A stretch of DNA of 64,000 nt from Spirochaetia bacterium (GTDB lineage Bacteria; Spirochaetota; Leptospiria; Turneriellales; JAOUOS01), in contig JAOUOS010000002.1 of the NCBI GenBank assembly GCA_029880285.1, positions 62,001 to 126,000 on the forward strand. The letters run 5' to 3'. The translations under genes were made by a program, and so were the position numbers. Positions within the stretch are counted from its first letter, which is position 1; every line of letters begins with the position of its first letter. This document shows positions 3,291 to 18,085 of this stretch, piece after piece. A model generated the notes under the pieces. The model saw nothing but the letters and a program-made list of their open reading frames with translations, searched no databases and had not been told where the DNA came from.

Positions 3291-3911
3291 TTAAATCGCA
3301 TACGCGATACCTAATTTTATGGATATTGTAAATCCGTTATTTAAAAAATCAGTTGTTTCTGTAACATTTTTTACCATATTTTCATATTCTTTATTTTTTA
3401 AATACATATTGGCCCCTAAATATACTTCAGGCACCAGGTACAATCCGTGCTTTATAAAATAATTACAGCCGCTAGCCACATAAAAACTAACTATATAATT
3501 TTTTAGTCCGTCTGAAGTACTGTATTGAAATGCCGGCCCATACCCTACCCAAAAATTATAAGGAGCGCTGTTAAAAAGCGTTAAAGATAAAATTCCTGCT
3601 TCTATCATAATTTCATCTACATCGTATTGCATAACAGAATCTTCTTTTTTCCAATGAGGGAAAAACGCAAAATGAGTTTTTACGCTCGCGTAAGGCGAAT
3701 ATTTATAGTCAAAAAAAAGACCGCCGCCTATTCCGTTTGAATAACTTGTTTTATCTTTTTTTTCTATGGCTGCAGATTCTATTGAATAGTATGAAGACAT
3801 TAATGAATAGTGACCCGTGATACCGAATAATCTTTGGTTTATAGCGCTAAGACTTTCAAAACTTAAAGTAGATAATAATAATATTAAATATATATTTTTA
3901 TTTGACTTCAT
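3291..3911 (-). CDS. secreted outer-membrane beta-barrel-like protein
   Basis: A 206-residue protein with a cleavable signal peptide (basic MKSNKN, a hydrophobic leucine-rich core, then SLSA). The rest alternates short aromatic and polar strands (for example FGITGHYSLMSSYYSI, FFDYKYSPYASVKTHFAFFP and FWVGYGPAFQYST) and ends in an amphipathic strand, GFTISIKLGIAYAI. This is what a small eight-stranded outer-membrane barrel looks like; no family could be named. It is the first gene of a pair with the CsgG-like lipoprotein, which suggests they work together at the outer membrane. Confidence 0.6.
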   Translation of the reverse strand: MKSNKNIYLILLLSTLSFESLSAINQRLFGITGHYSLMSSYYSIESAAIEKKDKTSYSNGIGGGLFFDYKYSPYASVKTHFAFFPHWKKEDSVMQYDVDEIMIEAGILSLTLFNSAPYNFWVGYGPAFQYSTSDGLKNYIVSFYVASGCNYFIKHGLYLVPEVYLGANMYLKNKEYENMVKNVTETTDFLNNGFTISIKLGIAYAI

Positions 3912-3990: not shown

Positions 3991-5085
3991 CTAAACCGAC
4001 TTGGGTATAAAAAGAGTAACTTCTGCGTTTTTTTCGGGCTCACTGTTAATTTCAATATCGCTGTTGTAAATTTCCATATAACGGACTACAATTAATAACC
4101 CTAAACCCATACCGTCTTTTCCCTGAAACAATTGCCCTATTTTTTTATTTTTTTTAATTTGTGACACTGTATTTTTTTCAAACCCTTTACCTTCATTAAA
4201 TATTTTTATGACGCATGTGTTTTTTTCTTCGATTAAAGTAATTTTTACAATTTCATTTCTTCTGGAAAATTTAAAAGCATTATCAATTAATTCTTGCATC
4301 ACTTTTTGAAAATCATTTTCACTAATTTTCACAGTTACATTTGAAATATCAACAATTAAATCGTCCTGCCTTTTATAAAGCGCTGCGGTTTGATCGGCAA
4401 TTTTTCTTATAATAAGAGCTGTATTGTTCATACTTCTATTTCTTATTGTTTTAAGTCTTGAAGCATCTAATAATATTATTTCAAGCTGCGCCAATAAAAG
4501 ATAATTTTGTATAGTATCATTGAGTCTTTCTGCAGACTGATACATAATTTCGGCCATTTCACCTATTTCTTCTCTTTCCATAATATGATAATTTAAAGAC
4601 AAAAGCTGGGTAAAACCTAAAATACCATTTAATGGGGTTAATAATTCATGCGGCAGGGTATGAACAATATTTTCTTTGAATATTCTTAGTTTTTCTTCAC
4701 TTTTTATAAAAAATTCATCCTGCTTATTAAGACGTGTAGTTATCGTATTTAATAAGTCTTTCATCGCAAACGGCTTAGAGACATAATCATCCGCTCCCTC
4801 ACTCATACCCTTTCTTCTATCTAAGACAGAGTTTTTTGCAGTAAGAAAAATAAAAGGTGTAAGTGCGGTATCTGTATTCTGGCGAAGCTCTTTAAGTACT
4901 TGATAACCATTTTTTTCGGGCATCGCGATATCACATATAATAATGTCAGGATTAAAGGTAACTGCTTTTTCAATACCTTCTTTTCCATTACTTGCTTCGT
5001 CTGCTTTAAAACCTTCAAATTGTAAAAACTGGACAATATCAGTTCTTATTGCTTCATCATCTTCTACTATAAGAATTTTTTTCAT
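3991..5085 (-). CDS. hybrid receiver-histidine kinase (REC-HisKA-HATPase)
   Basis: 364 residues, cytoplasmic, with no membrane segment. An N-terminal receiver domain (about 1-118) has the acidic pair D9/D10, phospho-acceptor D52 (CDIAMPEKNG), T82 and switch Lys 104 (SKPF). It is followed directly by a HisKA helix pair with H146 (HTLPHELLTPLNGILGF) and a HATPase domain with N box QELIDNAFKFS, G1 NEGKGF and G2 GMGLGLLIV. The PHELLTPLNG H box is typical of cyanobacterial-type hybrid kinases. It is the last gene of a five-gene receiver/kinase operon, and its ATG overlaps the TGA of the previous gene (ATGA). With no DNA-binding output, it probably acts in a phosphorelay. Confidence 0.92.
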   Translation of the reverse strand: MKKILIVEDDEAIRTDIVQFLQFEGFKADEASNGKEGIEKAVTFNPDIIICDIAMPEKNGYQVLKELRQNTDTALTPFIFLTAKNSVLDRRKGMSEGADDYVSKPFAMKDLLNTITTRLNKQDEFFIKSEEKLRIFKENIVHTLPHELLTPLNGILGFTQLLSLNYHIMEREEIGEMAEIMYQSAERLNDTIQNYLLLAQLEIILLDASRLKTIRNRSMNNTALIIRKIADQTAALYKRQDDLIVDISNVTVKISENDFQKVMQELIDNAFKFSRRNEIVKITLIEEKNTCVIKIFNEGKGFEKNTVSQIKKNKKIGQLFQGKDGMGLGLLIVVRYMEIYNSDIEINSEPEKNAEVTLFIPKSV

Positions 5086-7817
5086 GATACAACTCCTTCA
5101 ACATTACCGGTGTGCATTAAACTCATTTGAAGAGGTATGGTAACTGTAAAAATTGATCCCTTATCTTTTTCACTTTTTATATCAATAGTACCATTTTGTT
5201 CTTTAAGAAAAACTGACATAACAGAAAGGCCAAGGCCAATTCCTTTTCTGTTGCCGACATTTTTTCCCCTGAAGAAAGGATCTAATATATATTTTTTATC
5301 TTCATCTGAAATTCCAATACCTTCATCTTTAACAGATAATACAAAGTTTTCATCTTTTAACTTTACTGTTAAATAAATTTTGCTGCCTTCATAAGAATAT
5401 TTAACCGCGTTTGAAAGTAAATTTGTAATAGTATGAAATAATATTCTTTCATCTAATAAAATATTATCTTCGTGACATAAATTTTGAAACACAATATTAT
5501 ATTTTGCGTTTGACATTATTTTCATTTCTTCTATAATTTCATTGCAAAATTTATCAATATTTATAAGAACAGGATTTAGCTCTATTTTACCGGCCTCTGC
5601 CTGACCCAAGGTCAATATATCTTCTACAAGATGGGTCATTCGATAAACTTCTTTATGTATTTTGTTTAGTTTTTCTGCTTTCTGGCTTTTATCCATACGA
5701 TCATCATAATGCTGTAAAATCTCTGTGGATGAAAGTATGGCTGTTAAAGGTGTTCTAAATTCATGAGAAACCATCGAAACAAATCGAGATTTTAAATTGC
5801 TGAGTTCTTTTTCTTTTGCCAAAGATTCTTTTAGTTCTAACGTAAGATCTTTTTCTCTATCGAGAACTTCTTCAATTTGACGGGTTCTTTCTTCTACCAT
5901 TTCAATAAGTTTTGCCCTATAGCTGCTTAACTCAGTTATATCTTGCCCTACTGACCATATACCTACAATATTATTGTTTGAATCAAGCCTGGGAGTCGCG
6001 TTTAAAAGAAAAACTACCTCTATATCTTTTTTAGATGTTTTAAATCTCAATTCAAATGTTGGTGTTTTTTCTCCATTTTTTGCTTTTTTAAATATATCAT
6101 ACGCGAAGTTTACATTTTCTGAATGTATGTAGTCATATAAAGAATCTCCTATTATATTTTTTTTATGAAATCCCGTTAATAGTTCAGCTGAGCCGTTCCA
6201 CTCGGTAATTAAACCCTGTAAATTTACGGCAAAAATAGGAGCACTTGCAGTATCAATAAAAAGTCTAAGTTCTTTGCTTATTCGAGCGTATCCAAGAAGA
6301 GCAGTACGCAAAAAATTTTCAGTTTTCTTAATAGCGCTTACATCTGTAATAACAGCAAACCTTCCCTTGTATCCATCTTTAATATCAGATAATTTTCTAA
6401 CCGAAAATAAAACAGGCAGTTCCGATTTATCTTTCTTTCGCAGGAATATTTCATAAGATCCGTTTGAATCCTGTGATTTTAGTTTATTTTCAAGTCTTAG
6501 ATAAGAACTTTTTGCCAGAAATTTTTTAAGCGGCTTATTAATAAGTTCTTGCAAAGTATAGCCAGACATCTGCTTGAATTTATTATTGCTATAAATAATT
6601 TTTTGATCTTTATCTTCAACTATAAAACCTTCATTCATTGATTCAACCAGCATTTGAAATTTTTTCTCACTCTCAAATAAAGCGGCCTCGGCTTGTATTT
6701 TTTCTGTCATATCTAAACCAATACAGATAATTTTACTTTCTTTCTTTGTTTCGGCGTAAAGCGCGGCAAAAGACCACGAAACGTATATTTTTTTTGTCTG
6801 CTTAATTAAAAACTCTTCTTCAAAAGAAGCAAAATTATTTTCACTTAGTGCGTATGAAATTTTATCTTTAATCAGCTTTTCATTTTTTTCTTTTGAAAAG
6901 ATTTCCCAAAATTTTTTGCCCGCAATTTCTTCTTCAGAAAGCTGAAAAAACTCACGGCTGAATCGGTTAGACCGCAGTATACTTCCTGATTTGTTGAGTA
7001 CTAAAATAAAAGCTCCAGCTGTTTCAATAACAGCAGAAATAAAATCTTTTTCTTCCTTAAGTTCTTTTTCTGCTTTTTTTTGTTTTGTTATGTCAGTTAG
7101 AATAGCCAGCTTGCCTGATTTCTTATTTTGTTCATCAAAAAGCTGTTCAAAAGAAACAATGCAGTTTAATCTGGGCCCTTTTTTCGGCTCTAATTCTATT
7201 TCAAATTTAGATTTATTAACCAATTGATTCTTTTTTTCTTTCTCATTAAATAAAAAAAACTTTCCAAAGGGTCTGCCAACAACTTCTTCAAATGAAGAAC
7301 CAAGCATTCTTGACATTTGAGGGTTTATATAAGTAATATTTTCTTTTTTATCATAAACCACTAAACCCTCCCGCATTTTTTCAATGAGCATGCGGTATTT
7401 ACTTTCGCTTTCTTCTAATTTTAATTTATACATATTTCTTTCTATACCGTAGCGGATTGATTTTTCAAGTATTTCAGCTGAAATTTGACTTTTTATCAAA
7501 TAATCCTGAACACCTAATCTTAATGCCTCTTTCGCGGCTTCTTTGTCAGTTAACCCGGTAAGAACTATAATAGGTAAAGTTTTATAATTTTTCGTAATTT
7601 CATAAACAGCTGAAAGCTGATAAGAATCAGGAAGTCCTAAATCTAAAAATATTAAATCAGTTTTTTTTCTTTTTAAATTTTTTAAAGCCTCTTTTAATGT
7701 ATAAGAAATTTCTAGTTGAAAAGAAATTTCTGACATAGACTGTATGATCTCTTGAAATAAGAAAGCATACGCTTTATCATCTTCAATAAGCAATATATTT
7801 AAAGGACTTTGTTTCAT
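5082..7817 (-). CDS. multi-PAS hybrid receiver-histidine kinase
   Basis: 911 residues, soluble. The order is an N-terminal receiver (D59 in FLDLGLPD, switch Lys in YLIKS near 109), four PAS domains (about 135-255, 260-380, 390-505 and 525-645), a coiled-coil linker (E-rich, ERTRQIEEVLDREKDL), HisKA with H near 685 (VSHEFRTPLTAI) and HATPase (N box TNLLSNAVKYS, G2 KGIGLGLSVMS). The PAS array suggests sensing of small molecules or redox inside the cell, but no cofactor-binding residue can be assigned by eye. It overlaps the downstream kinase gene by 4 nt and lies 4 nt after the stand-alone receiver gene, so all are one transcription unit. Confidence 0.93.
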   Translation of the reverse strand: MKQSPLNILLIEDDKAYAFLFQEIIQSMSEISFQLEISYTLKEALKNLKRKKTDLIFLDLGLPDSYQLSAVYEITKNYKTLPIIVLTGLTDKEAAKEALRLGVQDYLIKSQISAEILEKSIRYGIERNMYKLKLEESESKYRMLIEKMREGLVVYDKKENITYINPQMSRMLGSSFEEVVGRPFGKFFLFNEKEKKNQLVNKSKFEIELEPKKGPRLNCIVSFEQLFDEQNKKSGKLAILTDITKQKKAEKELKEEKDFISAVIETAGAFILVLNKSGSILRSNRFSREFFQLSEEEIAGKKFWEIFSKEKNEKLIKDKISYALSENNFASFEEEFLIKQTKKIYVSWSFAALYAETKKESKIICIGLDMTEKIQAEAALFESEKKFQMLVESMNEGFIVEDKDQKIIYSNNKFKQMSGYTLQELINKPLKKFLAKSSYLRLENKLKSQDSNGSYEIFLRKKDKSELPVLFSVRKLSDIKDGYKGRFAVITDVSAIKKTENFLRTALLGYARISKELRLFIDTASAPIFAVNLQGLITEWNGSAELLTGFHKKNIIGDSLYDYIHSENVNFAYDIFKKAKNGEKTPTFELRFKTSKKDIEVVFLLNATPRLDSNNNIVGIWSVGQDITELSSYRAKLIEMVEERTRQIEEVLDREKDLTLELKESLAKEKELSNLKSRFVSMVSHEFRTPLTAILSSTEILQHYDDRMDKSQKAEKLNKIHKEVYRMTHLVEDILTLGQAEAGKIELNPVLINIDKFCNEIIEEMKIMSNAKYNIVFQNLCHEDNILLDERILFHTITNLLSNAVKYSYEGSKIYLTVKLKDENFVLSVKDEGIGISDEDKKYILDPFFRGKNVGNRKGIGLGLSVMSVFLKEQNGTIDIKSEKDKGSIFTVTIPLQMSLMHTGNVEGVVS

Positions 7818-7821
7818 TTAT

Positions 7822-8271
7822 TTACAGGCCATGGGTGGGATAAACAACTTCACCAAGCCAAAAATCATTAATTAAAGTAATTAACCTGTGAAAATCTTCA
7901 ATATTCGTGGGCTTCTTTAAATAACAATTCGCGTGCAGATGGTATGTTGCTATAATATCTCTTTTATCTTGAGACGAAGTCAACACAATAACAGGAATTC
8001 TTTTTAAGATGCTGTCTTTTTTTATTGATTCTAGAATTTCAATACCATTTTTATGCGGCAAATTTAAATCTAAAATTATTAAATCTGGCAAATCGTGTTT
8101 TACGTCTAGCCTGGCTTTTTCAAAATATTTCATGGCTTTTGCGCCATCTTCAGCTATTGTTAAACGAAAATTTGCTTGTTTCTCTTCGAGCAAATCTTGT
8201 ATGAGAGTTATATCTCCCGGATTATCTTCTATCAGCATTATGTGAAGCTGAACCATTTTTGTTAAATTCAT
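7822..8271 (-). CDS. single-domain response regulator, Rcp1-like
   Basis: A 149-residue receiver with no output domain. Acidic pocket E15/D16, phospho-acceptor D68 (ILDLNLPHKNG), T98 (VLTSS) and Lys in YLKKP near 119 are all present. The long loop before D68 and the NLPHKNGIEIL wording match Rcp1-type receivers, which accept phosphate from phytochrome-class kinases. The start overlaps the stop of the preceding kinase gene by 4 nt. It is the natural phosphate carrier shared between the hybrid kinases of this operon; that role is inference. Confidence 0.9.
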   Translation of the reverse strand: MNLTKMVQLHIMLIEDNPGDITLIQDLLEEKQANFRLTIAEDGAKAMKYFEKARLDVKHDLPDLIILDLNLPHKNGIEILESIKKDSILKRIPVIVLTSSQDKRDIIATYHLHANCYLKKPTNIEDFHRLITLINDFWLGEVVYPTHGL

Positions 8272-9743
8272 TTTTTAATCTCCTTTTTTTGCAAAGTAAA
8301 GAAAAAACGGGTAAAGTTACCGGGCTCTGATTCTGCCCATATCTTACCCCCGTGATTTTCTACAATTTTCTTGCATATCGCAAGTCCTATTCCTGTGCCT
8401 TCATATTTATCTTTTGCATGAAGCCTTTGAAACATTGTAAATATTTTCTCATGAAATTTCGGCTCAAAACCAATTCCATTGTCTTCTACACAAAAAATCT
8501 TTTCATTTTTATTTTCTTTATACGTTATTTGAATTCTTCCATTTTTATTTTTTCTAAATTTTATGGCATTTGAAATTAAATTTTGAAATAACTGTCTTAT
8601 TTGAATTGAATCGCCGCTAATTTGGGGAAGTTTTATATGCTCTATTTGTATTTCGCTTTCTTTAATACGACTGCTTAAGTCAGTTTTAACTAAGTTAATT
8701 ATTTCATTTAAATCGACACTTGAAAGCCTTTTTGGATAAAAACCAACGCGTGAATATGAAAGCATTCCATTTATTAGCTCATCCATTCTTTTGGCCCCTT
8801 CTATGGCAAAATTTAAATAATCAGTTAATTTTTTATCAAATTTATTCTCTGTTTTTTTGCCAATAAGTTCAAGATAACTATAAATCATCCTAAGCGGCTC
8901 TTTTAAATCATGCGAAACAATATACGCGTATTGTTCTAAATCGACATTCGACCTTTTGAGTTCTTTCGCGCTTTCTTCGAGCTTGAGTTCAGATTGTTTT
9001 ATCTCGGTTATATCATGACATACTGTTACGTAACAAAAAGGTTTTTTTGATTTATCATAGATGCTTGTACTTGTTACTAAAGCGGAAAATATTGTGCCAT
9101 CTTTAGTTATATGCTGATGTTCGCCTTTATAAGAGTAATTTAATTTTTGATTAAATATTTTTTCTGGTATTGTTTTATCTGACCAAATGATAGAAGCTTC
9201 AATATCTATAATTTCACTTTCAAGATAACCATATTTTTTTAGAAAAGCGTTATTTACAAACATTACTTTTTTATCTTTGTTTAAAATAATTACCGAATCT
9301 GCCATATCTTTAAGAACTTGGGAGAGCATCAACTCATAAGTTTGCAGTTCTTTTTGCTTTAATATTCTTTCAACCGTAACGGGTAGCATTTTTAAATAGT
9401 TACCCGTTAAGTCTTTAATTAAATAATCGCTGGCGCCGGCCCTTAAGGCCCCTACGGCAATTTCTTCACTACCGCTCGCGGTTGTAATAATAACAGGGAT
9501 ATCAACCGCTAATTTTATTACATCTAAAGCCGTGCCGTCAGCTAACCGGTAATCACTTATAATTATATCATATCTGTTTAATTTAATACTTTTTTTCGCG
9601 CTTTTTAAAGAATCTGATATATCAAGCTTGTAATTTAACTTTTCATTTTGAATAAATCGGCTTATTGCCATAGCGTCTACTTTCTCATCTTCTACTAAAA
9701 GAATTGAAATTGTATTTTCTTTTGTACTCTTATTTTCAAACAT
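8268..9743 (-). CDS. hybrid receiver-PAS-histidine kinase
   Basis: 491 residues, soluble. Receiver domain about 12-130 with D64 (SDYRLADG) and Lys in YLIKD near 110; one PAS domain about 140-250; HisKA with H278 (AYIVSHDLKEPLRMI); HATPase with QNLISNAIKF, DNGIGF and GTGIGLAIC. The SHDLKEPLR H box and short kinase core are typical of bacteriophytochrome-class (HWE-unrelated) soluble kinases that pair with Rcp1-like receivers, and such a receiver gene follows immediately with a 4-nt overlap. It overlaps the upstream kinase gene by 8 nt. Confidence 0.92.
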   Translation of the reverse strand: MFENKSTKENTISILLVEDEKVDAMAISRFIQNEKLNYKLDISDSLKSAKKSIKLNRYDIIISDYRLADGTALDVIKLAVDIPVIITTASGSEEIAVGALRAGASDYLIKDLTGNYLKMLPVTVERILKQKELQTYELMLSQVLKDMADSVIILNKDKKVMFVNNAFLKKYGYLESEIIDIEASIIWSDKTIPEKIFNQKLNYSYKGEHQHITKDGTIFSALVTSTSIYDKSKKPFCYVTVCHDITEIKQSELKLEESAKELKRSNVDLEQYAYIVSHDLKEPLRMIYSYLELIGKKTENKFDKKLTDYLNFAIEGAKRMDELINGMLSYSRVGFYPKRLSSVDLNEIINLVKTDLSSRIKESEIQIEHIKLPQISGDSIQIRQLFQNLISNAIKFRKNKNGRIQITYKENKNEKIFCVEDNGIGFEPKFHEKIFTMFQRLHAKDKYEGTGIGLAICKKIVENHGGKIWAESEPGNFTRFFFTLQKKEIKK

Positions 9744-11151
9744 AAACTTCTTCTTTTTTTATTACTCTAGGCAAAGTAAAATAAAAAGAGGTTCCTTTCT
9801 TTTTTACTGACGTTATTGAAACCTCTCCCCCATATAAATTTACCAGCTTTTTTACAATAGAAAGTCCTATTCCGCTGCCATTATTTTGTGTAAGCAATTT
9901 GTTCATATTTTTAATATTATTTTCAACTACTTTGGGCATACCCGGACCATTATCAATTATATAAAACTTCCAAAAACCTTCTTCAGATTTACATCCTACT
10001 TTAATAACACCTTTTTCTTTATCATTATATTTTACCGCGTTACTAATTATATTTAAAAAGATTTGTTCTATTCTGTTTTTCTCAAAATATAATCGGGGGA
10101 ATTCCGTTTCAAATATAAATTTTATGTTTTCAGTGGGAGAAAGAATTCTTAAAATTTCACTTAATAAATATTTTATATCGATTTTTACTTTTTCTTCTTT
10201 TTCTTCACCAGCTAAAGAGTAACGTAAAATACCATCAATAAGGCTGTGCATCAACCGTGCTTTTTCCTGCATATCGTCTAAATATTTTTTTCCCTTTTCA
10301 TCAATAACATTATAATAATCTTCTTTAATCCATGACGCTAAAGAATTTATGCTTCTTAGTGGTGTTTTTAAATCATGAGATACTATATGAGCGAACTCTT
10401 TAAGTTCTTTATTAATAAAAGCTATTTTTTTGAGAAGCTTTTCTTGCTGTGCTTCATTTTCTTTTCTTTCTGTAACATCTCTTAAAATTATTAACACTTC
10501 TTTACTGGCATTTGGTGTTATTCTAGCTTCAAAATATTTTTCGTTTAATTTATAATTCATTATTTTAAGCTCACTTTTTTTTAAAACTTCAAGAATAATA
10601 GTTGAAGCTTTTTTTCTAATTGCATCAGGAAAATATCTAGAACAATGAGGAAAATATTTTTCATCAATTATTTGACCTTTTTCATTAGCGAAAAAAAGCA
10701 TATCGGGAATTGAATTTATTAATTGAAATTGTCTATTTTCAATTGTTTTAATTGCTTTTTGAATAATATGATTCTCTACGCTAAACATTATTTTTCTTTC
10801 TGCGATTTTTATTCTCATCTTCAGCTCTATAGAAATTGTCGATTTTAGAATAAAATCATCTGCTCCCGCATCTAATACTCTCTCTATTATATCTTGCTGC
10901 TCTACGGCCGTAATAATAATTACATAACTTAACTGAGGAGGTTTTAACTTTTTAATTTTCTTGCATAATTCAATGCCGTCAATTCCCGGCAGCATTAAAT
11001 CAACAATATAAATAGCATATTTTTCAATAGTTCCGCTTGATAAGGCTTTTTCAGCTGATTCATAGGAAGAAACCATATGATTTCTTTGTTTGTATATCTC
11101 TTCTATAAGCCTTCGCGAGACAGGCTCGTCTTCTACGATCAGTGTTCTCAT
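9736..11151 (-). CDS. hybrid receiver-histidine kinase, first gene of the locus
   Basis: 471 residues, soluble. Receiver about 1-120 with E7/D8, D51 (VDLMLPGIDG), T81 and K103. A degenerate PAS-like middle (about 135-230) follows, ending in LRDVTERKE. HisKA has H259 (FAHIVSHDLKTPLRSI), and HATPase has FLNIISNAVKY, DNGPGMP and GSGIGLSIV. It is the promoter-proximal gene of the five-gene array. About 28 bp before the start is a 39-bp perfect dyad that could be an operator. Confidence 0.9.
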   Translation of the reverse strand: MRTLIVEDEPVSRRLIEEIYKQRNHMVSSYESAEKALSSGTIEKYAIYIVDLMLPGIDGIELCKKIKKLKPPQLSYVIIITAVEQQDIIERVLDAGADDFILKSTISIELKMRIKIAERKIMFSVENHIIQKAIKTIENRQFQLINSIPDMLFFANEKGQIIDEKYFPHCSRYFPDAIRKKASTIILEVLKKSELKIMNYKLNEKYFEARITPNASKEVLIILRDVTERKENEAQQEKLLKKIAFINKELKEFAHIVSHDLKTPLRSINSLASWIKEDYYNVIDEKGKKYLDDMQEKARLMHSLIDGILRYSLAGEEKEEKVKIDIKYLLSEILRILSPTENIKFIFETEFPRLYFEKNRIEQIFLNIISNAVKYNDKEKGVIKVGCKSEEGFWKFYIIDNGPGMPKVVENNIKNMNKLLTQNNGSGIGLSIVKKLVNLYGGEVSITSVKKKGTSFYFTLPRVIKKEEVYV

Positions 11152-11436: not shown

Positions 11437-13323
11437 TTAAATTGAATTTTCTATTTCTTCAAGTTCAGCTAATAAATCAAAAAGCTGCTTTTCTTTCTCT
11501 ATGTGAAGATAGCTCCATTTCTCAAGAAGTTTATGATCTGTTTCTCCTGATGAAAGTTTTTTATTTAGTTCTTTTATCTCGTTTTCTAAATCTGGAATTT
11601 CTTTTTCAATAACTTCTTTTCTTAATCTGTCTTTATAGGAAAATTTTGTCTTTAATTTTACTCTTTCTGGTTTATTTTCTTTCTTTGCTTTTTGATGGTT
11701 TTGACGCATCTTTTTTTCGGTAAATAAATAATCACTGCATAAACCCGGCACTATTTTTACAGAGTTTCCTTTTTCAAATATAAACAATGTATCCGTTAAT
11801 TTATCAAGAAAATATCTGTCGTGCGAAACAATAATCAAACAGCCTTCAAAATCAGTAAGATAATCTTCTAAAAGAGCCAATGTCTGCAAATCAAGATCAT
11901 TTGTAGGTTCATCTAAAATTAAAAAGTTAGGATTTGTCATTAAAATTCTTATAATATCAAGACGTCTTCTTTCACCTCCTGAGAGCCGGTTTACTTTTTG
12001 CCCATGATTTTTAAATAAGAACTTGTCTAAAAGCTGCCCCGCTGTTATTTTTTTGCCGTCTTCAAATTCAATATAATTAGCAATCTCTTTTACCGCATGA
12101 ATTACAGAAAGACTTTCATTCAAGCTTTCAGTGGCTTGAGAAAGATATCCAATTTTAGTATTTATGCCCAAATTGACTTTGCCTGTATCAGGCTCAATAT
12201 TTCGCATTAGTATTTGAAGAAATGTCGTTTTTCCCGCACCGTTATCGCCTATGACTCCTATTCTTTCTTTTTTCTTGAACTCATAAGAAAATGACGGTAA
12301 AATTGACATGCTATCAAAACTCTTTGATATATTAATAACCTCTAATATTTTTTTCCCCAGCCTTTGTTCTCTTGAATAAAAAGAATTAATATTTTCTTTA
12401 TCTTTTATATTTTGGACCGTATTTTTAACAACGTTTTGCCTGCCTTCAATTTGCTGAATTCGCGCCTTTTGTTTTGTACCCCGCGCTTTTGGCATTCTAC
12501 CTAACCATTCAAGTTCTTTTGTTAAAATTTTTTGATGTTTATCTAATGTTTTTTGTTCAATTTCGGCCAGTAATTCTTTTTTTTCTAAAAAATAGGAATA
12601 ATTTCCCTTATATTTATTTATCTGCCTGTTATCAATTTCTAAAATATGATTGGCAACATTATCTAAAAAATACCTGTCATGAGTAATAATAATTACAGCT
12701 TTTTTTGTTTTACATAAATATTCTTCAAGCCACGCGATACTCGTTATATCTAAATGATTCGTAGGCTCATCTAATAAAATCAAATTATTCTCTTCAATTA
12801 GAAGGCGTGCCAGCGCAACTTTTTTAATCATTCCCCCTGAAAGCTCACTCATTTTCTTATTTATATCTTTAATACCCAGATGAAATAAAATTTCTTTTGC
12901 TTCACTTTCTAAACGCCAAACTTGAAGTGCATTCATTTTTTCTTCAAGAATCTCTAAATTCTTTAATTCAAATTTTAAGTTCTGTGATTTTTCACTGGCA
13001 ATTAAGCTTTGCAATTCAAAATAGCTGCTTAAAAGCTTCATTCGTTGATTTTCTGAATCAAAAATAAAATCTCTAATACTATGTTTTTCTTTATAATTTA
13101 TGTTTTGTTCAAGATAACCGCATACCATATTCTTGTTTCTAGCAAAATTTCCTGAATCAAAACTATCTTTACCATAAATTATCTTTAATAAAGTCGATTT
13201 ACCAGACCCATTAATACCAATAACAGCTGCTTTGTCATTTTCATCTATACCAAAAGATATATTTTTATAAAGAATTTTATCCCCAATTTCTTTTGAAGCT
13301 TCTGATATTGAAATAAGATTCAC
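11437..13323 (-). CDS. uup: ABC-F family ATPase, Uup-like
   Basis: 628 residues with two ABC ATPase domains in one chain and no membrane segments. Domain 1 has Walker A GINGSGKST near residue 37, signature LSGGMIKK and Walker B LILLDEPTNHLD. Domain 2 has GDNGAGKTT near 350, LSGGERRRLD and LILDEPTNDLD. A basic linker (MPKARGTKQKARIQQ) sits between them, and a coiled-coil C-terminal domain of about 80 residues is Lys/Glu rich, as in Uup. ABC-F proteins act on ribosomes or, for Uup, also on branched DNA intermediates. It stands alone, with no close partner gene. Confidence 0.9.
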   Translation of the reverse strand: MNLISISEASKEIGDKILYKNISFGIDENDKAAVIGINGSGKSTLLKIIYGKDSFDSGNFARNKNMVCGYLEQNINYKEKHSIRDFIFDSENQRMKLLSSYFELQSLIASEKSQNLKFELKNLEILEEKMNALQVWRLESEAKEILFHLGIKDINKKMSELSGGMIKKVALARLLIEENNLILLDEPTNHLDITSIAWLEEYLCKTKKAVIIITHDRYFLDNVANHILEIDNRQINKYKGNYSYFLEKKELLAEIEQKTLDKHQKILTKELEWLGRMPKARGTKQKARIQQIEGRQNVVKNTVQNIKDKENINSFYSREQRLGKKILEVINISKSFDSMSILPSFSYEFKKKERIGVIGDNGAGKTTFLQILMRNIEPDTGKVNLGINTKIGYLSQATESLNESLSVIHAVKEIANYIEFEDGKKITAGQLLDKFLFKNHGQKVNRLSGGERRRLDIIRILMTNPNFLILDEPTNDLDLQTLALLEDYLTDFEGCLIIVSHDRYFLDKLTDTLFIFEKGNSVKIVPGLCSDYLFTEKKMRQNHQKAKKENKPERVKLKTKFSYKDRLRKEVIEKEIPDLENEIKELNKKLSSGETDHKLLEKWSYLHIEKEKQLFDLLAELEEIENSI

Positions 13324-13501: not shown

Positions 13502-13580
13502 TACAAACCCTCTGCTCGGGTTCGAATCCCCTCCGATAAAAAAACCCGCTTCTTGCGGGTTTTTGTTTCGGAGAGGGAGG
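13502..13580. repeat. 79-bp direct repeat, copy 2 (overlaps the real tRNA-Ser 3' end)
   Basis: Second copy, offset by 134 bp. Its right end (13569-13580) is the true 3' end of tRNA-Ser(GCU); its left part (13515-13535) is a tRNA T-arm/acceptor-like end (GGGTTCGAATCCC core, then CTCCG) pointing the opposite way. No tRNA body is attached to that opposite-strand end, so it is a partial copy. Confidence 0.85.
13536..13568 (-). terminator. intrinsic terminator of tRNA-Ser(GCU)
   Basis: Read on the minus strand directly after the tRNA discriminator base: AAAAACCCGC (13564-13555), loop AAGAA, GCGGGTTTTT (13549-13540) and further T residues. The stem also works on the plus strand. Confidence 0.8.
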
Positions 13581-13657
13581 GATTCGAACCCTCGGTCCAG
13601 GTTGCCCCAGACGACGGTTTAGCAAACCGTTCCTTTCGGCCTCTCAGGCACCTCTCC
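13569..13657 (-). tRNA. tRNA-Ser (anticodon GCU)
   Basis: 89 nt, class II. Acceptor GGAGAGG pairs with CCTCTCC, with discriminator G. The anticodon arm ACGGT-TTGCTAA-ACCGT gives anticodon GCU. There is a long variable arm, and the T-arm is GAGGG-TTCGAAT-CCCTC. CCA is not encoded; the next bases are AAA. It decodes AGC/AGU. The gene is flanked on both sides by partial copies of itself. Confidence 0.95.
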
Positions 13658-13684
13658 ATTTCAGTCGAGGCGCCTGTACGTTGT
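13642..13684. repeat. 43-bp direct repeat, copy 1 (tRNA-Ser 5' end and upstream hairpin)
   Basis: Identical to 13775-13817, 133 bp away. It covers the first ~16 nt of the real tRNA-Ser(GCU), its 9-nt upstream spacer and most of the nearest upstream hairpin. Confidence 0.85.
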
Positions 13685-13968: not shown

Positions 13969-14053
13969 CGGAGGAGGTAGGATTCGAACCCACGGACCCT
14001 TTCAGGTCAACGGTTTTCAAGACCGCCGCCTTCAACCACTCGGCCACTCCTCC
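13969..14053 (-). tRNA. tRNA-Ser (anticodon UGA)
   Basis: 85 nt, class II. Acceptor GGAGGAG pairs with CTCCTCC, with discriminator G. The anticodon loop CTTGAAA gives UGA. The variable arm is GACC-TGAAA-GGGTC-like, and the T-arm is GTGGG-TTCGAAT-CCTAC. No encoded CCA. It decodes UCN serine codons. Immediately upstream is a 52-bp tandem array built from its own first 13 nt. Confidence 0.95.
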
Positions 14054-14349: not shown

Positions 14350-15240
14350 ATGGCTATTTTTTCTCAAGCTGTCAAAAAAGTCTCATTTAGGGGAAAAGAA
14401 CCTGTAATTTGTCCAATTTGCAAGGCTGAACATCATAAAGAAGAATTAATGTCTGGTGGGGGAAGGTTAATCGCGGGCAAACTTACGCAAGAATTAAGAC
14501 GGCTTTATGAAGAAAGTAAAAAGTACGGTAAAATACATCCGCTGGCATATGTTATACAAACTTGTCCCAAATGCCTTTATTCTTCTTTTCCTAAAGATTT
14601 CAGTTTACTTAAAGAAGAAAATATTAAAGCGATAAGAGACACAACAACACACCGGCAAAAATTAACACAGGTTCTTTTTAATAATATTGATTTTAATAAT
14701 GATAGAGACTTAGTTCTAGGTACAGCATCTTATATTTTGGCCATAGACTGCTACCATTTAAGGTCCCATGATACCGCGCCTACACCTAAAAAAGCCGTAT
14801 GCTCAATGCGGGCAGCATGGATGTTAGATGATTTATACTCAGAAGCTTCCTACAGACCTTATGACAAAGCGCGCGATTTTTATTATATGGAAGCCGTTAA
14901 AAACTATGCGAAATGCCTAGAAATTATGGAAAGAGGTGGTGAACCTATTGAGTCTGCGGGATATATTTTAGGCCCAGATCAGGACCATAACTGGGGTTTT
15001 GATGGAATCATATATTTAAATGCCTTTTTAACTAAAAAATTCAGTAATCAATTATCTGAATCTGTTGAAGAAGAATATAAAATGCTTGAAAAAGCGAAGA
15101 GGTATTTATCAAAACTTTACGGAACAGGAAAATCTAGTAAATCAAAACCAACTGTTATAGTAGATATGTCAAAAGATTTATATGATGAAATCGGTAAAGT
15201 ACTTGACACTTTAAAAAGCAAGTCTGTATCAGCGTCATAA
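14350..15240 (+). CDS. DUF2225 family protein
   Basis: A 296-residue soluble protein of the DUF2225 family, found in spirochaetes and Firmicutes, function not established. Two CxxC pairs near the N-terminus (ICPIC near residue 23 and TCPKC near residue 75) suggest a bound zinc. The remainder is helical, with TPR-like stretches (RAAWMLDDLYSEAS; YYMEAVKNYAKCLEIM). The ATG at 14350 has no clear ribosome site. It stands alone between the tRNA region and the OmpA-family gene; the 140 bp upstream show no further gene. Confidence 0.85.
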   Translation: MAIFSQAVKKVSFRGKEPVICPICKAEHHKEELMSGGGRLIAGKLTQELRRLYEESKKYGKIHPLAYVIQTCPKCLYSSFPKDFSLLKEENIKAIRDTTTHRQKLTQVLFNNIDFNNDRDLVLGTASYILAIDCYHLRSHDTAPTPKKAVCSMRAAWMLDDLYSEASYRPYDKARDFYYMEAVKNYAKCLEIMERGGEPIESAGYILGPDQDHNWGFDGIIYLNAFLTKKFSNQLSESVEEEYKMLEKAKRYLSKLYGTGKSSKSKPTVIVDMSKDLYDEIGKVLDTLKSKSVSAS

Positions 15241-15298: not shown

Positions 15299-18085
15299 AT
15301 GAAAAACTATAATTGGAGATTTTTTTTAAAAACAATAGTACTACTAGGGTTAATAACTCAAACACTATATGCCTCTGTGGTCAGTGAGGCCCATGAGACA
15401 GGCCACGCGGCCTCAGTAGTGGGCGCAGGCGGTATCTCAAGCCCCCTTTTTGCCCCGCAGGAAGGCTCTTTTTCAAATTCTTCTCTTTTAAGTGAATTTG
15501 AAAGAAAAGGCGGCGGAATAAATTTTATGTACGGCGATAACCTGCATGGCGCATCAGGCCTATTTTACATACCGTCTTCACTAGGAGTTCTTGGTATTTC
15601 GGGCGGTTACGCGATGGCTTCTAATATTTTAGAAGGTTTAGAACAGTACTATTATCTTGAACTGGGATACGGTAGAGCGTTTACTGATAATTTTTCTTTT
15701 GGATTAAGATTACGTCCTTCAGTAGGTACCGCTATAGAAGGTTCATTTTTCGGCTTAGGTATAGATCCTGCTGTTTTATATAATACCCATTCAAATATTG
15801 AAATTTCAAGCGGCTTGGGTTTATACGATTTCTCCTTTTATCTTTTAGGAAGAAATATCGCATTAAATATGGGAGACGGAAGTGACTCGGCACCCAGACT
15901 CTCGGTTCACGGCGGTATGCAAAGCGGTATTTTTAAATATGATAAATTTTCATCAAATTTATTGGTTGAACTTATGGGTATAGGAAATTTTAAAACCGTA
16001 CCTATTCACTTAGGGCTTAATTTACAGTATTGGCTTTTTTCACTTAGAGCCGGATACATGATCTCTGAAGAAAGTACACTCTTTGATGGTTTTAGCGTTG
16101 GCGCGGGGGTAAACTATACAAACGATCTGGGAAATATATCTTTTCAATACGGTGTTTTACCATCTACAGATAAAAGGGCATCTACTTATCATTTCTTTTC
16201 TTTAACGGCAAGTTATGGCCAAATTGACAGAAAACCGCCAGAAGTAGAAGTAGCATATGATGTTCAGGATTTTTCGCCTAACTGGGATGGTAAACAAGAC
16301 TATATAAACTTTGAAGTGGATGTTTCTGATGACAGCCCAATAAATGCGTGGAATTTGACTATCAAAGATTCAACAGGCAAAGCCGTTAGAGTTTTTGAAA
16401 ACGATAAACGTCTAATGGAAAAATCATTTGGCATAGGGGATTTCTTCGCGCACTTTTTTAAAAGCCAGGAATCTTTGGTCATTCCTTCAAAAATCAGATG
16501 GGATGGAACATCAGGCGCAGTGGCCATTAATGAAGTAAAAGCGGCATCACAGGGGCAGTCTAATGTACTGCCTGACGGTATTTATACATATGAATTTATT
16601 ACTGAAGATATTAAAGAAAATAAATCAGCACCTGTAACGGGACAAATTAAAATTGACACAAATGTTCCGCAAGTATTAGCGTCTCCTTCTACAAATTTAT
16701 TCAGCCCTAATGGTGATGGCTCACTAGACGAAATTCAAATTTTACATGAAAAATCAGTTGAACCAGATGATATCATAGAAGCACGCATTGAAGATGCCGA
16801 AGGAAATATAGTTAAAAAATATAACTGGCAGGGCAGCAATATTCCAAATTCTCTTTCATGGGATGGTACTGATGAAAACAATAATCCATCTTCAGACGGA
16901 GTTTATAATTACATTATAACTTCAAAAGACAGCGCGGGCAATTCATCTACTCATGAAATTCAAAATATAACTCTTACCAGAGCACTAGATTCAGTGGATA
17001 TCAGCATCTCTGATAAAGGCTTTAGCCCAAACAACGATGGTGTATCTGATATAGTTACTATTACACCATCGTTATCAAGCAAAGACGGTCTTATTTTCTG
17101 GGAAATCGTTGTTACTACAAAAAAAGTTGAAATAAAAGGCGATCCTGATTCTGAATTTCCTAAAGAACCAGTTAAAAAATGGCAGGGTAATGATATAAAT
17201 TCTCTTCCCGGCGAAATAAAATGGGCCGGTTTAAATAACGAGAATACTCTTGCTCAAGATGGATTATATTATTTGACAATGCGAGCACGATACAAAAACG
17301 GCAACCGCCCTGTTTCTTTTAGTAAAGAAGTTGTAGTTGATAAAACAGCGCCAAAGGCCGAAGTTGAGGCTCAGCTATACACTTTCTCACCCGACGGAGA
17401 CGGTGAAAACGAAGAACAAACCTTTAACCTTTACGTAAAAGATGATATTTATAATGAACGTACCGAAGGGAAAAATAAAGTAAAAAACTGCGCGGTTAGT
17501 ATATATGAAATAAGTTATGACGATAAAGAGCAAAAAGTAAGAATTCCCTTTAAAACTTTTAAAATGGAAACCGAAATTCCCGAAAAAATAATATGGGATG
17601 GAAAAAGCGACGCCGGGCATCTTGTAGAAAGTGCTACCATTTACGAATATGAAATAAACGCTGAAGATATTTATGGTAATAAAACCCTGTCATCTATCGG
17701 AAAATTTGAAACAGATATTTTAGTTTTAGTTACTGAAAGAGGCTTGAAAGTAAGACTTTCAAATGTTGAGTTTGAATTTGGTAAAGCCGATTTAAAAGAA
17801 AAATCTAAAGATCTTTTAGATAGGCTTGCTACTATTCTTGATAGATACCCAAAATATAAAATTAGAGTAGAGGGCCACTCAGATGACATTGGTAAAGAAG
17901 AATACAATTTATCTCTTTCAGAGAAAAGAGCAAAATCGGTAATGGATTATCTGATTGAAGAAGGTATAGATACAGAAAGAATTTCGTATCAAGGTTTAGG
18001 CGAAACTTCTCCGCTTTTACCCAATACTTCATGGTACAATAGAAGCAGAAACCGCAGAGTAGAGTTCATTTTGTTGAAAGAATAA
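15299..18085 (+). CDS. large OmpA-family outer-membrane protein with FlgD-like repeats
   Basis: 928 residues. A signal peptide (MKNYNWRFFLK, hydrophobic core, LYA-S) is followed by a PorV-like barrel region about 55-300 rich in Gly and aromatic strands. Next come several Ig-like repeats of the FlgD/gliding type, each opening with an FSPNxDG motif (FSPNWDG, FSPNGDG, FSPNNDG, FSPDGDG) and closing with a W-D/G-T/K-x motif. A C-terminal OmpA domain (about 820-928) has FEFGKADL, VEGHSDDIG, LSEKRAKSV and NRSRNRRVEF, so the peptidoglycan-binding Asp and Arg are present. The protein therefore probably spans outer membrane and cell wall. An AAAGGA site lies about 9 nt before the ATG. The last codons form an inverted repeat with the end of rsfS. 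Confidence 0.88.
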   Translation: MKNYNWRFFLKTIVLLGLITQTLYASVVSEAHETGHAASVVGAGGISSPLFAPQEGSFSNSSLLSEFERKGGGINFMYGDNLHGASGLFYIPSSLGVLGISGGYAMASNILEGLEQYYYLELGYGRAFTDNFSFGLRLRPSVGTAIEGSFFGLGIDPAVLYNTHSNIEISSGLGLYDFSFYLLGRNIALNMGDGSDSAPRLSVHGGMQSGIFKYDKFSSNLLVELMGIGNFKTVPIHLGLNLQYWLFSLRAGYMISEESTLFDGFSVGAGVNYTNDLGNISFQYGVLPSTDKRASTYHFFSLTASYGQIDRKPPEVEVAYDVQDFSPNWDGKQDYINFEVDVSDDSPINAWNLTIKDSTGKAVRVFENDKRLMEKSFGIGDFFAHFFKSQESLVIPSKIRWDGTSGAVAINEVKAASQGQSNVLPDGIYTYEFITEDIKENKSAPVTGQIKIDTNVPQVLASPSTNLFSPNGDGSLDEIQILHEKSVEPDDIIEARIEDAEGNIVKKYNWQGSNIPNSLSWDGTDENNNPSSDGVYNYIITSKDSAGNSSTHEIQNITLTRALDSVDISISDKGFSPNNDGVSDIVTITPSLSSKDGLIFWEIVVTTKKVEIKGDPDSEFPKEPVKKWQGNDINSLPGEIKWAGLNNENTLAQDGLYYLTMRARYKNGNRPVSFSKEVVVDKTAPKAEVEAQLYTFSPDGDGENEEQTFNLYVKDDIYNERTEGKNKVKNCAVSIYEISYDDKEQKVRIPFKTFKMETEIPEKIIWDGKSDAGHLVESATIYEYEINAEDIYGNKTLSSIGKFETDILVLVTERGLKVRLSNVEFEFGKADLKEKSKDLLDRLATILDRYPKYKIRVEGHSDDIGKEEYNLSLSEKRAKSVMDYLIEEGIDTERISYQGLGETSPLLPNTSWYNRSRNRRVEFILLKE

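Follow-up and report, generated by a model that had tools for sequence, protein, structure and literature searches.

A five-gene array of receiver-first histidine kinases in a spirochaete and its possible role as a branched kinase-to-kinase cascade

Introduction

Histidine kinases controlled by an N-terminal receiver (REC) domain, the Rec-HKs, are frequent and their regulatory mechanisms are largely unknown; LvrB is their prototype (PMC13269768), and it is phosphorylated in vitro by LvrA (PMC5863495). Here we describe a five-gene array containing four such kinases, located at positions 3991 to 11151 of a 64,000-nucleotide stretch of DNA from a Spirochaetia bacterium (Leptospiria, Turneriellales; GenBank assembly GCA_029880285.1, contig JAOUOS010000002.1, positions 62,001 to 126,000), the whole of which is referred to as the window. 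Comparison with other genomes suggests that the array may encode a branched cascade in which one kinase acts on the REC domain of another. An initial annotation of the window had read the array as a phosphorelay network with a single receiver as shared carrier, and had regarded the REC-first layout as unusual. The latter view is not borne out, given the frequency of Rec-HKs and the situation in archaea, where REC-first kinases account for almost 20% of REC proteins and often contain PAS or GAF domains (PMC5847659).

The LvrA-LvrB-LvrC system of pathogenic Leptospira resembles the array in that its kinases are adjacent, soluble and devoid of a DNA-binding domain, and LvrB has the same REC-DHp-CA layout as the last gene of the array. 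The upstream kinase phosphorylates the REC domain of the next kinase, and the output lies in a further protein. The system differs in having two kinases where the array has four, and no Rcp1-like receiver is mentioned in the available parts of PMC5863495 and PMC13269768. In Rhodospirillum centenum, CheA3 phosphorylates a REC domain of CheS3 and switches CheS3 off (PMC3868531). Like the array, the CheA3-CheS3-CheY3 system combines a kinase acting on an N-terminal REC of another with a single-domain receiver; it differs in its chemotaxis-type kinase and receptor, in the position of the lone receiver behind the second kinase, and in that REC phosphorylation inhibits. ExsG is another REC-first kinase inhibited by phosphorylation of its REC (PMC3899027). 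REC-first kinases and phosphorylation of a REC domain by another kinase are already established through LvrA/LvrB and CheA3/CheS3, and by analogy the array is a variant on this theme, unusually long and with neither sensor nor output.

A kinase gene directly before a gene for a lone REC is a common layout, as with bacteriophytochrome- or Cph1-type kinases and Rcp1-like receivers, and genes 2 and 3 of the array share it. The array differs from such pairs in that it encodes no photosensory module, gene 2 begins with a REC, and two REC-first kinases follow gene 3.

Organization of the array

The array consists of five open reading frames (ORFs) on the minus strand, transcribed from 11151 towards 3991. 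Gene 1 (9736..11151) encodes a protein of 471 amino acids (aa) with a REC at residues 1-116 and a HisKA-HATPase core at 242-465 (phospho-acceptors D51 and H259); a divergent PAS-like stretch at 165-231 was picked up by a custom profile. Gene 2 (8268..9743; 491 aa) encodes a REC (12-121), a PAS domain (137-250) and a HisKA-HATPase core (261-489), with D64 and H278. Gene 3 (7822..8271; 149 aa) encodes a stand-alone Rcp1-like receiver with D68, T98 and K120. Gene 4 (5082..7817; 911 aa) combines a REC (6-123) with four PAS domains (138-632) and a HisKA-HATPase core (668-899), carrying D59 and H685, and gene 5 (3991..5085; 364 aa) has a REC (2-117) directly followed by the kinase core (129-364), with D52, K104 and H146. 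The phospho-accepting D68 and D52 were taken from alignments, and D51, D64 and D59 from a hand count on the REC strings. From gene 1 to gene 5, the junctions are an overlap of 8 nucleotides (nt), an overlap of 4, a gap of 4 and an overlap of 4.

In Pfam searches Response_reg was the first domain of all five proteins, and HisKA and HATPase_c scored above cut-off in all four kinases. The same searches found the PAS domain of gene 2 and the four of gene 4, and no helix-turn-helix or other output domain, no REC fused to a DNA-binding domain and no Hpt domain in the five proteins. The H boxes read SHDLKTP, SHDLKEP, SHEFRTP and PHELLTP in genes 1, 2, 4 and 5, respectively, and the N, G1 and G2 boxes are discernible in each kinase, with the first N-box Asn of gene 5 replaced by Glu and its G1 Asp by Asn. 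The HATPase_c domains of genes 1 and 5 score 76.4 and 54.1 bits (Pfam cut-off 26.4). That gene 1 of the window is itself a dead kinase can be dismissed on this score; a degenerate copy is found only in the sister genome described below. No membrane helix is expected in any of the proteins, since their highest 19-residue Kyte-Doolittle mean is 1.53. The array is thus as the initial annotation described it: five touching or overlapping genes for four soluble REC-first kinases and one receiver, with the H and D residues intact and no DNA-binding or other output domain. It is neither a classical Hpt phosphorelay operon nor a two-component operon with a transcriptional output.

The name given to the lone receiver is also well founded. 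The best solved structure for gene 3 is RCP1 (1i3c, E 3.4e-32), followed by 1jlk, 5te9 and 1k68, with RcpA among the nearest, so that gene 3 has the marks of an Rcp1-like single-domain receiver: it stands alone, is nearest to RCP1/RcpA and has a kinase gene directly upstream. That kinase, the product of gene 2, has a HisKA-HATPase core of the type found immediately before Rcp1-like RECs, carries Glu at position H+4 from H278, and finds 8f71 (‘Histidine kinase’) and then bacteriophytochromes among solved structures. Genes 1, 2, 4 and 5 all have the make-up of Rec-HKs, each beginning with a REC that bears a phosphorylatable Asp and continuing into DHp and CA within a single soluble chain. Unlike LvrB, genes 2 and 4 have PAS domains between REC and DHp, and gene 1 has a faint one.

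Gene 5 is the member built like LvrB. In its AlphaFold2 model (mean predicted local distance difference test score 84; 64-70 in the linker at residues 121-150) a single helix is predicted at 108-168, in which REC alpha-5 runs into the DHp as alpha-S. The first Foldseek match of the model is LvrB (8vc9; E 2.5e-21 over 397 columns), at a TM score of only ~0.35 and a root-mean-square deviation of ~20 Å. In VIA-align 2 the 50 rows listed for gene 5 match the REC, and LvrB is not among the matches listed. Against the NCBIfam model of LvrA (NF047465, cut-off 1200 bits) genes 1, 2, 4 and 5 score 151.4, 168.3, 109.6 and 118.7 bits, and among the best 25 families per protein LvrB (NF047466, cut-off 500 bits) appears for gene 2 with 97.9 bits. 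Because these scores are far below the cut-offs, the relation of the array to LvrA and LvrB is one of architecture and not of orthology.

Conservation in related genomes

We searched 40 related genomes, one of which (G001, a different genus) belongs to the same family as the window. In G001 the order and strand of all five genes are kept (L037 5581-12868). From gene 1 to gene 5, identities to the window are 43, 59, 71, 50 and 58%, with conservation highest in gene 3 (71% versus 43-59%). The recurrence of the same kinds of protein in the same order, at 43-71% identity, means that the array is not a product of chance. In this respect the gene-order check proposed with the initial annotation came out in its favour, as it did for genes 2-5 in the cyanobacterial loci L082, L190 and L191 described below. 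The five-gene order was not seen in the other 39 relatives, among the matches listed and with neighbourhoods fetched for 12.

The flanks are unrelated: no other ORF of the G001 stretch (14.5 kb, ORFs of at least 90 aa) has a match at E 1e-5 in the first 20 kb of the window. As background, around another window gene G001 retains runs of 2-4 genes shared with the window, in an altered order. In its conservation the array resembles an operon that was held together while its surroundings changed, which is normal for operons and by itself no sign of special importance.

The two copies are not identical in make-up. G001 gene 1 is without the PAS-like stretch and G001 gene 2 has one additional PAS. 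Furthermore, G001 gene 1 (L037 5581-6756; 391 aa) has lost the second N-box Asn, has NEHPE as its G1 box and has its G2 box deleted, and HATPase_c has no Pfam match in it at E 0.001, while the SHDLKAP H box and the REC Asp are both preserved. Judged by these boxes, the protein can hardly autophosphorylate and looks like a natural pseudokinase in an otherwise conserved array. In G001 gene 5 the G1 box is eroded to NQGKE.

A recurrent gene module

Gene 3-like stand-alone receivers, sought in named genomes, were found at at least 80 loci; 64 of these 80 were anchored, with a kinase gene directly upstream in 44, a REC-first kinase directly downstream in 24, and both in 18. Architectures were assigned with profiles seeded from the window’s own domains and enlarged by search, not with Pfam. 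With loci from the window’s class added, the set comprised 88 Rcp1-type receivers. The H box could be read in 55 of the 57 upstream kinases and in 22 of the 40 downstream ones. Among these, Glu stands at H+4 in 45 of the 55 upstream kinases, as in gene 2, and Thr or Asn in 18 of the 22 downstream REC-first kinases.

In a tree of 98 kinase domains from many phyla the upstream kinases are strongly clustered, with 5 label changes compared to a mean of 31.9 after shuffling (as low in 0 of 500 shuffles). The gene 2 kinase falls inside a set of 45 upstream kinases and 1 downstream kinase (support 100/99), whereas the gene 4 kinase groups with downstream kinases of Tychonema (98/98) and Calothrix (98/99). 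Gene 5 sits on a very long stem, and gene 1 lies near the upstream group on an open fork only; many downstream rows are long branches, which makes finer placement unsafe.

Within the window’s class the third position of the module can be taken by a REC-GGDEF-EAL protein (L048) or a REC-GAF-HD protein (L050, L052), and in L045 a REC-LuxR protein follows the kinases. The outputs in relatives are thus cyclic-di-GMP-type enzymes or a DNA-binding regulator, neither of which is encoded in the array of the window. At L056 433-4480 (G034), a gene for a REC-adenylate/guanylate cyclase is flanked by those for a REC-first kinase and an Rcp1-like receiver. Relatives of gene 5 (34-35% identity) were also found at L149 and L150 (G019 and G035), in clusters of the order HK, REC-HK, REC-HK, REC, STAS, CheA (HK, histidine kinase); in L150 a chemoreceptor gene comes next, so that REC-first kinases there adjoin a chemosensory-type system.

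Co-divergence of kinases and receivers

Which kinase goes with which REC was assessed from pairwise domain distances, compared by Spearman correlation with permutations over 27 cassettes in which a lone REC stands between an upstream kinase and a REC-first kinase. These are the cassettes with both neighbours present and kinase domains longer than 170 residues, and a limit of 150 also gives 27; in-class G030 (L045) and G031 (L049), where the lone REC was lost in ORF picking, are left out. Pearson correlations gave the same picture. The upstream kinase co-diverges with the lone REC (0.85; 0/2000 permutations) and with the REC that begins the next kinase (0.87; 0/2000), the latter still at 0.57 (0/2000) when the lone REC is partialled out. 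The kinase core to which that N-terminal REC is fused does not follow it (0.15; 240/2000), and less so with the upstream kinase partialled out (-0.04; 1224/2000).

The picture is similar in the 17 cassettes from outside the window’s class, where the upstream kinase correlates at 0.66 with the lone REC and at 0.65 with the N-terminal REC (partial 0.54; 1/2000), as opposed to 0.18 (245/2000) for the fused kinase and the N-terminal REC. In 11 out-of-class cassettes with canonical H boxes the corresponding values are 0.61, 0.51 and -0.16, and partialling leaves 0.45 (13/2000) between upstream kinase and N-terminal REC.

As an internal control against saturation, we used 12 cassettes whose second kinase also carries a C-terminal REC. 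Here the fused kinase follows the C-terminal REC (0.80; 1/5000) and not the N-terminal one (0.10; 979/5000), whereas the upstream kinase follows the N-terminal REC (0.86; 0/5000) more than the C-terminal one (0.26; 143/5000). Eight out-of-class cassettes of this kind gave 0.77 (26/5000) and 0.11 (1052/5000) for the fused kinase and, for the upstream kinase, 0.62 (60/5000) with the N-terminal and 0.15 (809/5000) with the C-terminal REC. Since the C-terminal REC tracks the fused kinase, the distances of that kinase do carry signal. Distance on the DNA is not the cause of the contrast either, because it holds in the 8 cassettes where REC and fused kinase are less than 90 residues apart (upstream 0.87, 11/5000; fused 0.11, 1274/5000). 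The N-terminal REC tracks the upstream kinase and not the fused one, and for this reason phosphorylation of the REC in REC-first kinases probably occurs in trans.

For the next step along the array, the gene 4 kinase and the gene 5 REC correlate at 0.65 over 17 pairs (5/2000), a value taken up again below.

The four-gene cassette of cyanobacteria

The order of genes 2-5 recurs in Tychonema (L082), where genes for a PAS4-HK, a lone REC, a REC-PAS-HK and a REC-HK follow each other in one direction. The last of these shares 37% identity with gene 5 across 361 residues, and no other match to gene 5 in that genome comes near it (246 bits, with 117 for the runner-up). In the order to which Tychonema belongs, 54 of 60 genomes match the Tychonema protein at E <=1e-30, many of the matches covering the REC only. 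Among 20 loci fetched from these 54 genomes, mostly the best-scoring ones, the full order of genes 2-5 was present in two (L190 and L191, genomes G074 and G042), with last genes 37-38% identical to gene 5. Of the others, 11 have a gene 4-like kinase upstream of the gene 5-like one on the same strand and 1 has it on the opposite strand, and none was found in the stretch in 6. In L193 a REC-GGDEF-EAL gene is among those intervening between the two kinases.

In all three complete cassettes the first kinase is headed by ETR1_N, the ethylene-receptor domain (L082 5103-7937, L190 3550-6348 and L191 3706-6501). The cyanobacterial cassette thus reads ETR1_N-PAS-HK, Rcp1-like REC, REC-PAS-HK, REC-HK. 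It differs from the array in that the membrane domain of an ethylene receptor replaces the REC of gene 2, its third gene has a single PAS as opposed to the four of gene 4, and no counterpart of gene 1 was seen. In Azospirillum, an ethylene receptor with an adjacent output-less receiver has been described (PMC11819568). The position of ETR1_N at the head of the cassettes suggests that a kinase cascade stands behind some bacterial ethylene receptors. ETR1_N has no match in the window’s genome, and likewise none in 14 control genomes, so that its absence is not shown.

Four of the cyanobacterial loci also contain genes for proteins of 237-243 aa with a REC near that of gene 5 and a DHp remnant (L192 8254-8967, L193 6339-7061, L194 from 3726, and L198 8270-8983). 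We discarded these proteins as phosphotransfer intermediates, as the phospho-accepting His is replaced by E or Q in all four.

Proposed cascade and alternative explanations

We rate it at somewhat better than an even chance that the array constitutes a soluble branched kinase-to-kinase cascade, for which we infer all phosphotransfer steps, their signs, the signal and the output. The observations in its support are the anatomy of the array, the intact catalytic residues, the kept gene order and the finding that N-terminal RECs of the gene 4 type co-diverge with kinases of the gene 2 type. A sensor kinase not encoded in the array, or another donor, would phosphorylate the RECs of the entry kinases, the products of genes 1 and 2. 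Active kinase 2 would then phosphorylate the lone Rcp1-like receiver and, along a separate branch, the REC at the N-terminus of kinase 4. Kinase 4 would be gated by this REC, with its four PAS domains possibly supplying intracellular input, and would act on further RECs, perhaps including that of kinase 5. In kinase 5, phosphorylation of the REC may, as in LvrB, rearrange the helix between REC and DHp and alter kinase activity, and the final target of kinase 5 would be a regulator encoded elsewhere.

Several observations weigh against such a cascade. The complete five-gene order was found in 1 of the 40 relatives (among the matches listed and the neighbourhoods of 13 genomes), gene 1 is attested in two genomes only, and in G001 gene 1 is missing ATP-binding boxes and the G1 box of gene 5 is eroded. 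Among the 27 cassettes only 4 (window, L037, L072 and L130) have an upstream kinase with a REC of its own, and between upstream kinase and C-terminal REC a partial correlation of 0.42 (16/5000) persists. For genes 4 and 5, the correlation falls to 0.14 (441/2000) when gene 5’s own kinase is partialled out and to 0.36 (114/2000) without the window, L037 and L150; the step from kinase 4 to kinase 5 is inseparable from common inheritance and is a guess from gene neighbourhood. Joint inheritance without phosphotransfer can also yield co-divergence, and the samples are small and exploratory, with no species-tree control. Finally, phosphorylated N-terminal RECs can inhibit as well, to judge by ExsG and CheS3. 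The proposal that the kinases are switched by one another is therefore retained in part: writing in trans on N-terminal RECs agrees with the co-divergence and with the LvrA/LvrB and CheA3/CheS3 precedents, whereas a network of four mutually acting kinases was too strong a claim in view of the lost ATP boxes of G001 gene 1 and of the gene 4 to gene 5 link.

That inheritance alone explains the co-divergence is unlikely. The upstream kinase, the lone REC and the N-terminal REC would then form a linkage block, with the 3' part of the next gene often replaced, through recombination and not recognition; the three co-diverging domains are indeed encoded side by side, and the tree shows clear diversity among the second kinase domains. 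The signal is, however, equally strong where only 10-64 residues separate the REC from the fused kinase (8 cassettes), and a REC that keeps to the upstream kinase through changes of the core fused to it would itself suggest selection. The same contrast bears on the notion of four self-contained kinases and a receiver that are merely co-expressed, each core phosphorylating its own N-terminal REC with no cascade. All four kinases have the H and D this would take, and co-location alone is no proof of exchange, but the N-terminal REC does not co-diverge with its fused kinase while C-terminal RECs track theirs, and we consider this explanation quite unlikely.

Gene 1, and perhaps gene 5, might no longer be enzymes, and could serve as REC-controlled scaffolds, dimer partners or phosphate sinks. 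In G001, gene 1 lost its ATP boxes yet kept the His and the REC Asp, gene 5 has the NQGKE G1 box, and REC-HisKA proteins without an ATPase are known in archaea (PMC5847659). In the window the HATPase_c domains of both genes score above the Pfam cut-off, and the explanation as a whole seems improbable. The lone receiver as a shared phosphate carrier that joins four mutually switching kinases, as put forward in the initial annotation, is very improbable, even though gene 3 is the most conserved of the five genes and lies in the middle of the array. Phosphate is not known to pass between REC domains except by way of a histidine, and the array has no Hpt domain. Moreover, the G001 version of gene 1 is ruled out as an ordinary kinase, and the lone REC shows no co-divergence with the kinase cores that N-terminal RECs are fused to (0.16; 208/2000). 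The pattern of co-divergence agrees with two branches leaving one kinase in parallel, and because of it a branched cascade, in which kinase 2 acts on the lone REC and also on the one in kinase 4, is favoured over the shared carrier.

Flanking genes and other features of the window

Upstream of the array, 285 nt from gene 1 and outside the array, lies a gene for an ABC-F protein (11437..13323, minus strand), of which a 65%-identical fragment is found at the edge of another G001 contig and not beside the G001 array. Downstream, 79 nt past gene 5, a gene on the minus strand (3291..3911) encodes a 206-aa protein with no Pfam match and no counterpart in the fetched G001 stretch; its co-transcription with the array is possible, and it is not part of the conserved unit. 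Scans for promoters (47 versus 39.6 expected, standard deviation 7.2) and terminators (5 versus 3.4 expected, standard deviation 1.7) were near chance.

Hpt matches occur at 4 places elsewhere in the window’s genome. The smallest is a short open frame of 115 aa (G000:C11:14251-14496), which is possible as a link to an output. Further into the window, 15299-18085 encodes a 928-aa protein with an OmpA end that resembles Lsa66 below the cut-off (271.5 of 700 bits), and this gene and its neighbour at 14350-15240 are adjacent in G001 too (65-67% identity). Two tRNA-Ser genes lie on the minus strand at 13568-13658 and 13969-14053, and the small ORFs overlapping them are probably spurious.

Implications

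From the comparisons a general rule may be proposed, to which we would give slightly less than an even chance: in cassettes of a kinase, an Rcp1-like receiver and a REC-first kinase, which occur from cyanobacteria to a haloarchaeon, an N-terminal REC belongs to the upstream kinase and a C-terminal REC, if any, to the fused kinase, which would make REC-first kinases kinase-gated kinases. Neither this rule nor the four-gene cassette was found in print in the open-licence literature, which argues only weakly for their novelty. Should the co-divergence rule hold, the order of the genes would be enough to predict which kinase writes on the REC of a REC-first kinase. The array of the window would then be one of the deepest elaborations seen, a multi-tier soluble cascade in which the entry kinases too are REC-gated, neither sensor nor output is encoded, and one tier is without catalysis in the sister genus. 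With five proteins free of membrane parts, such a cascade could be reconstituted in the test tube and measured step by step.

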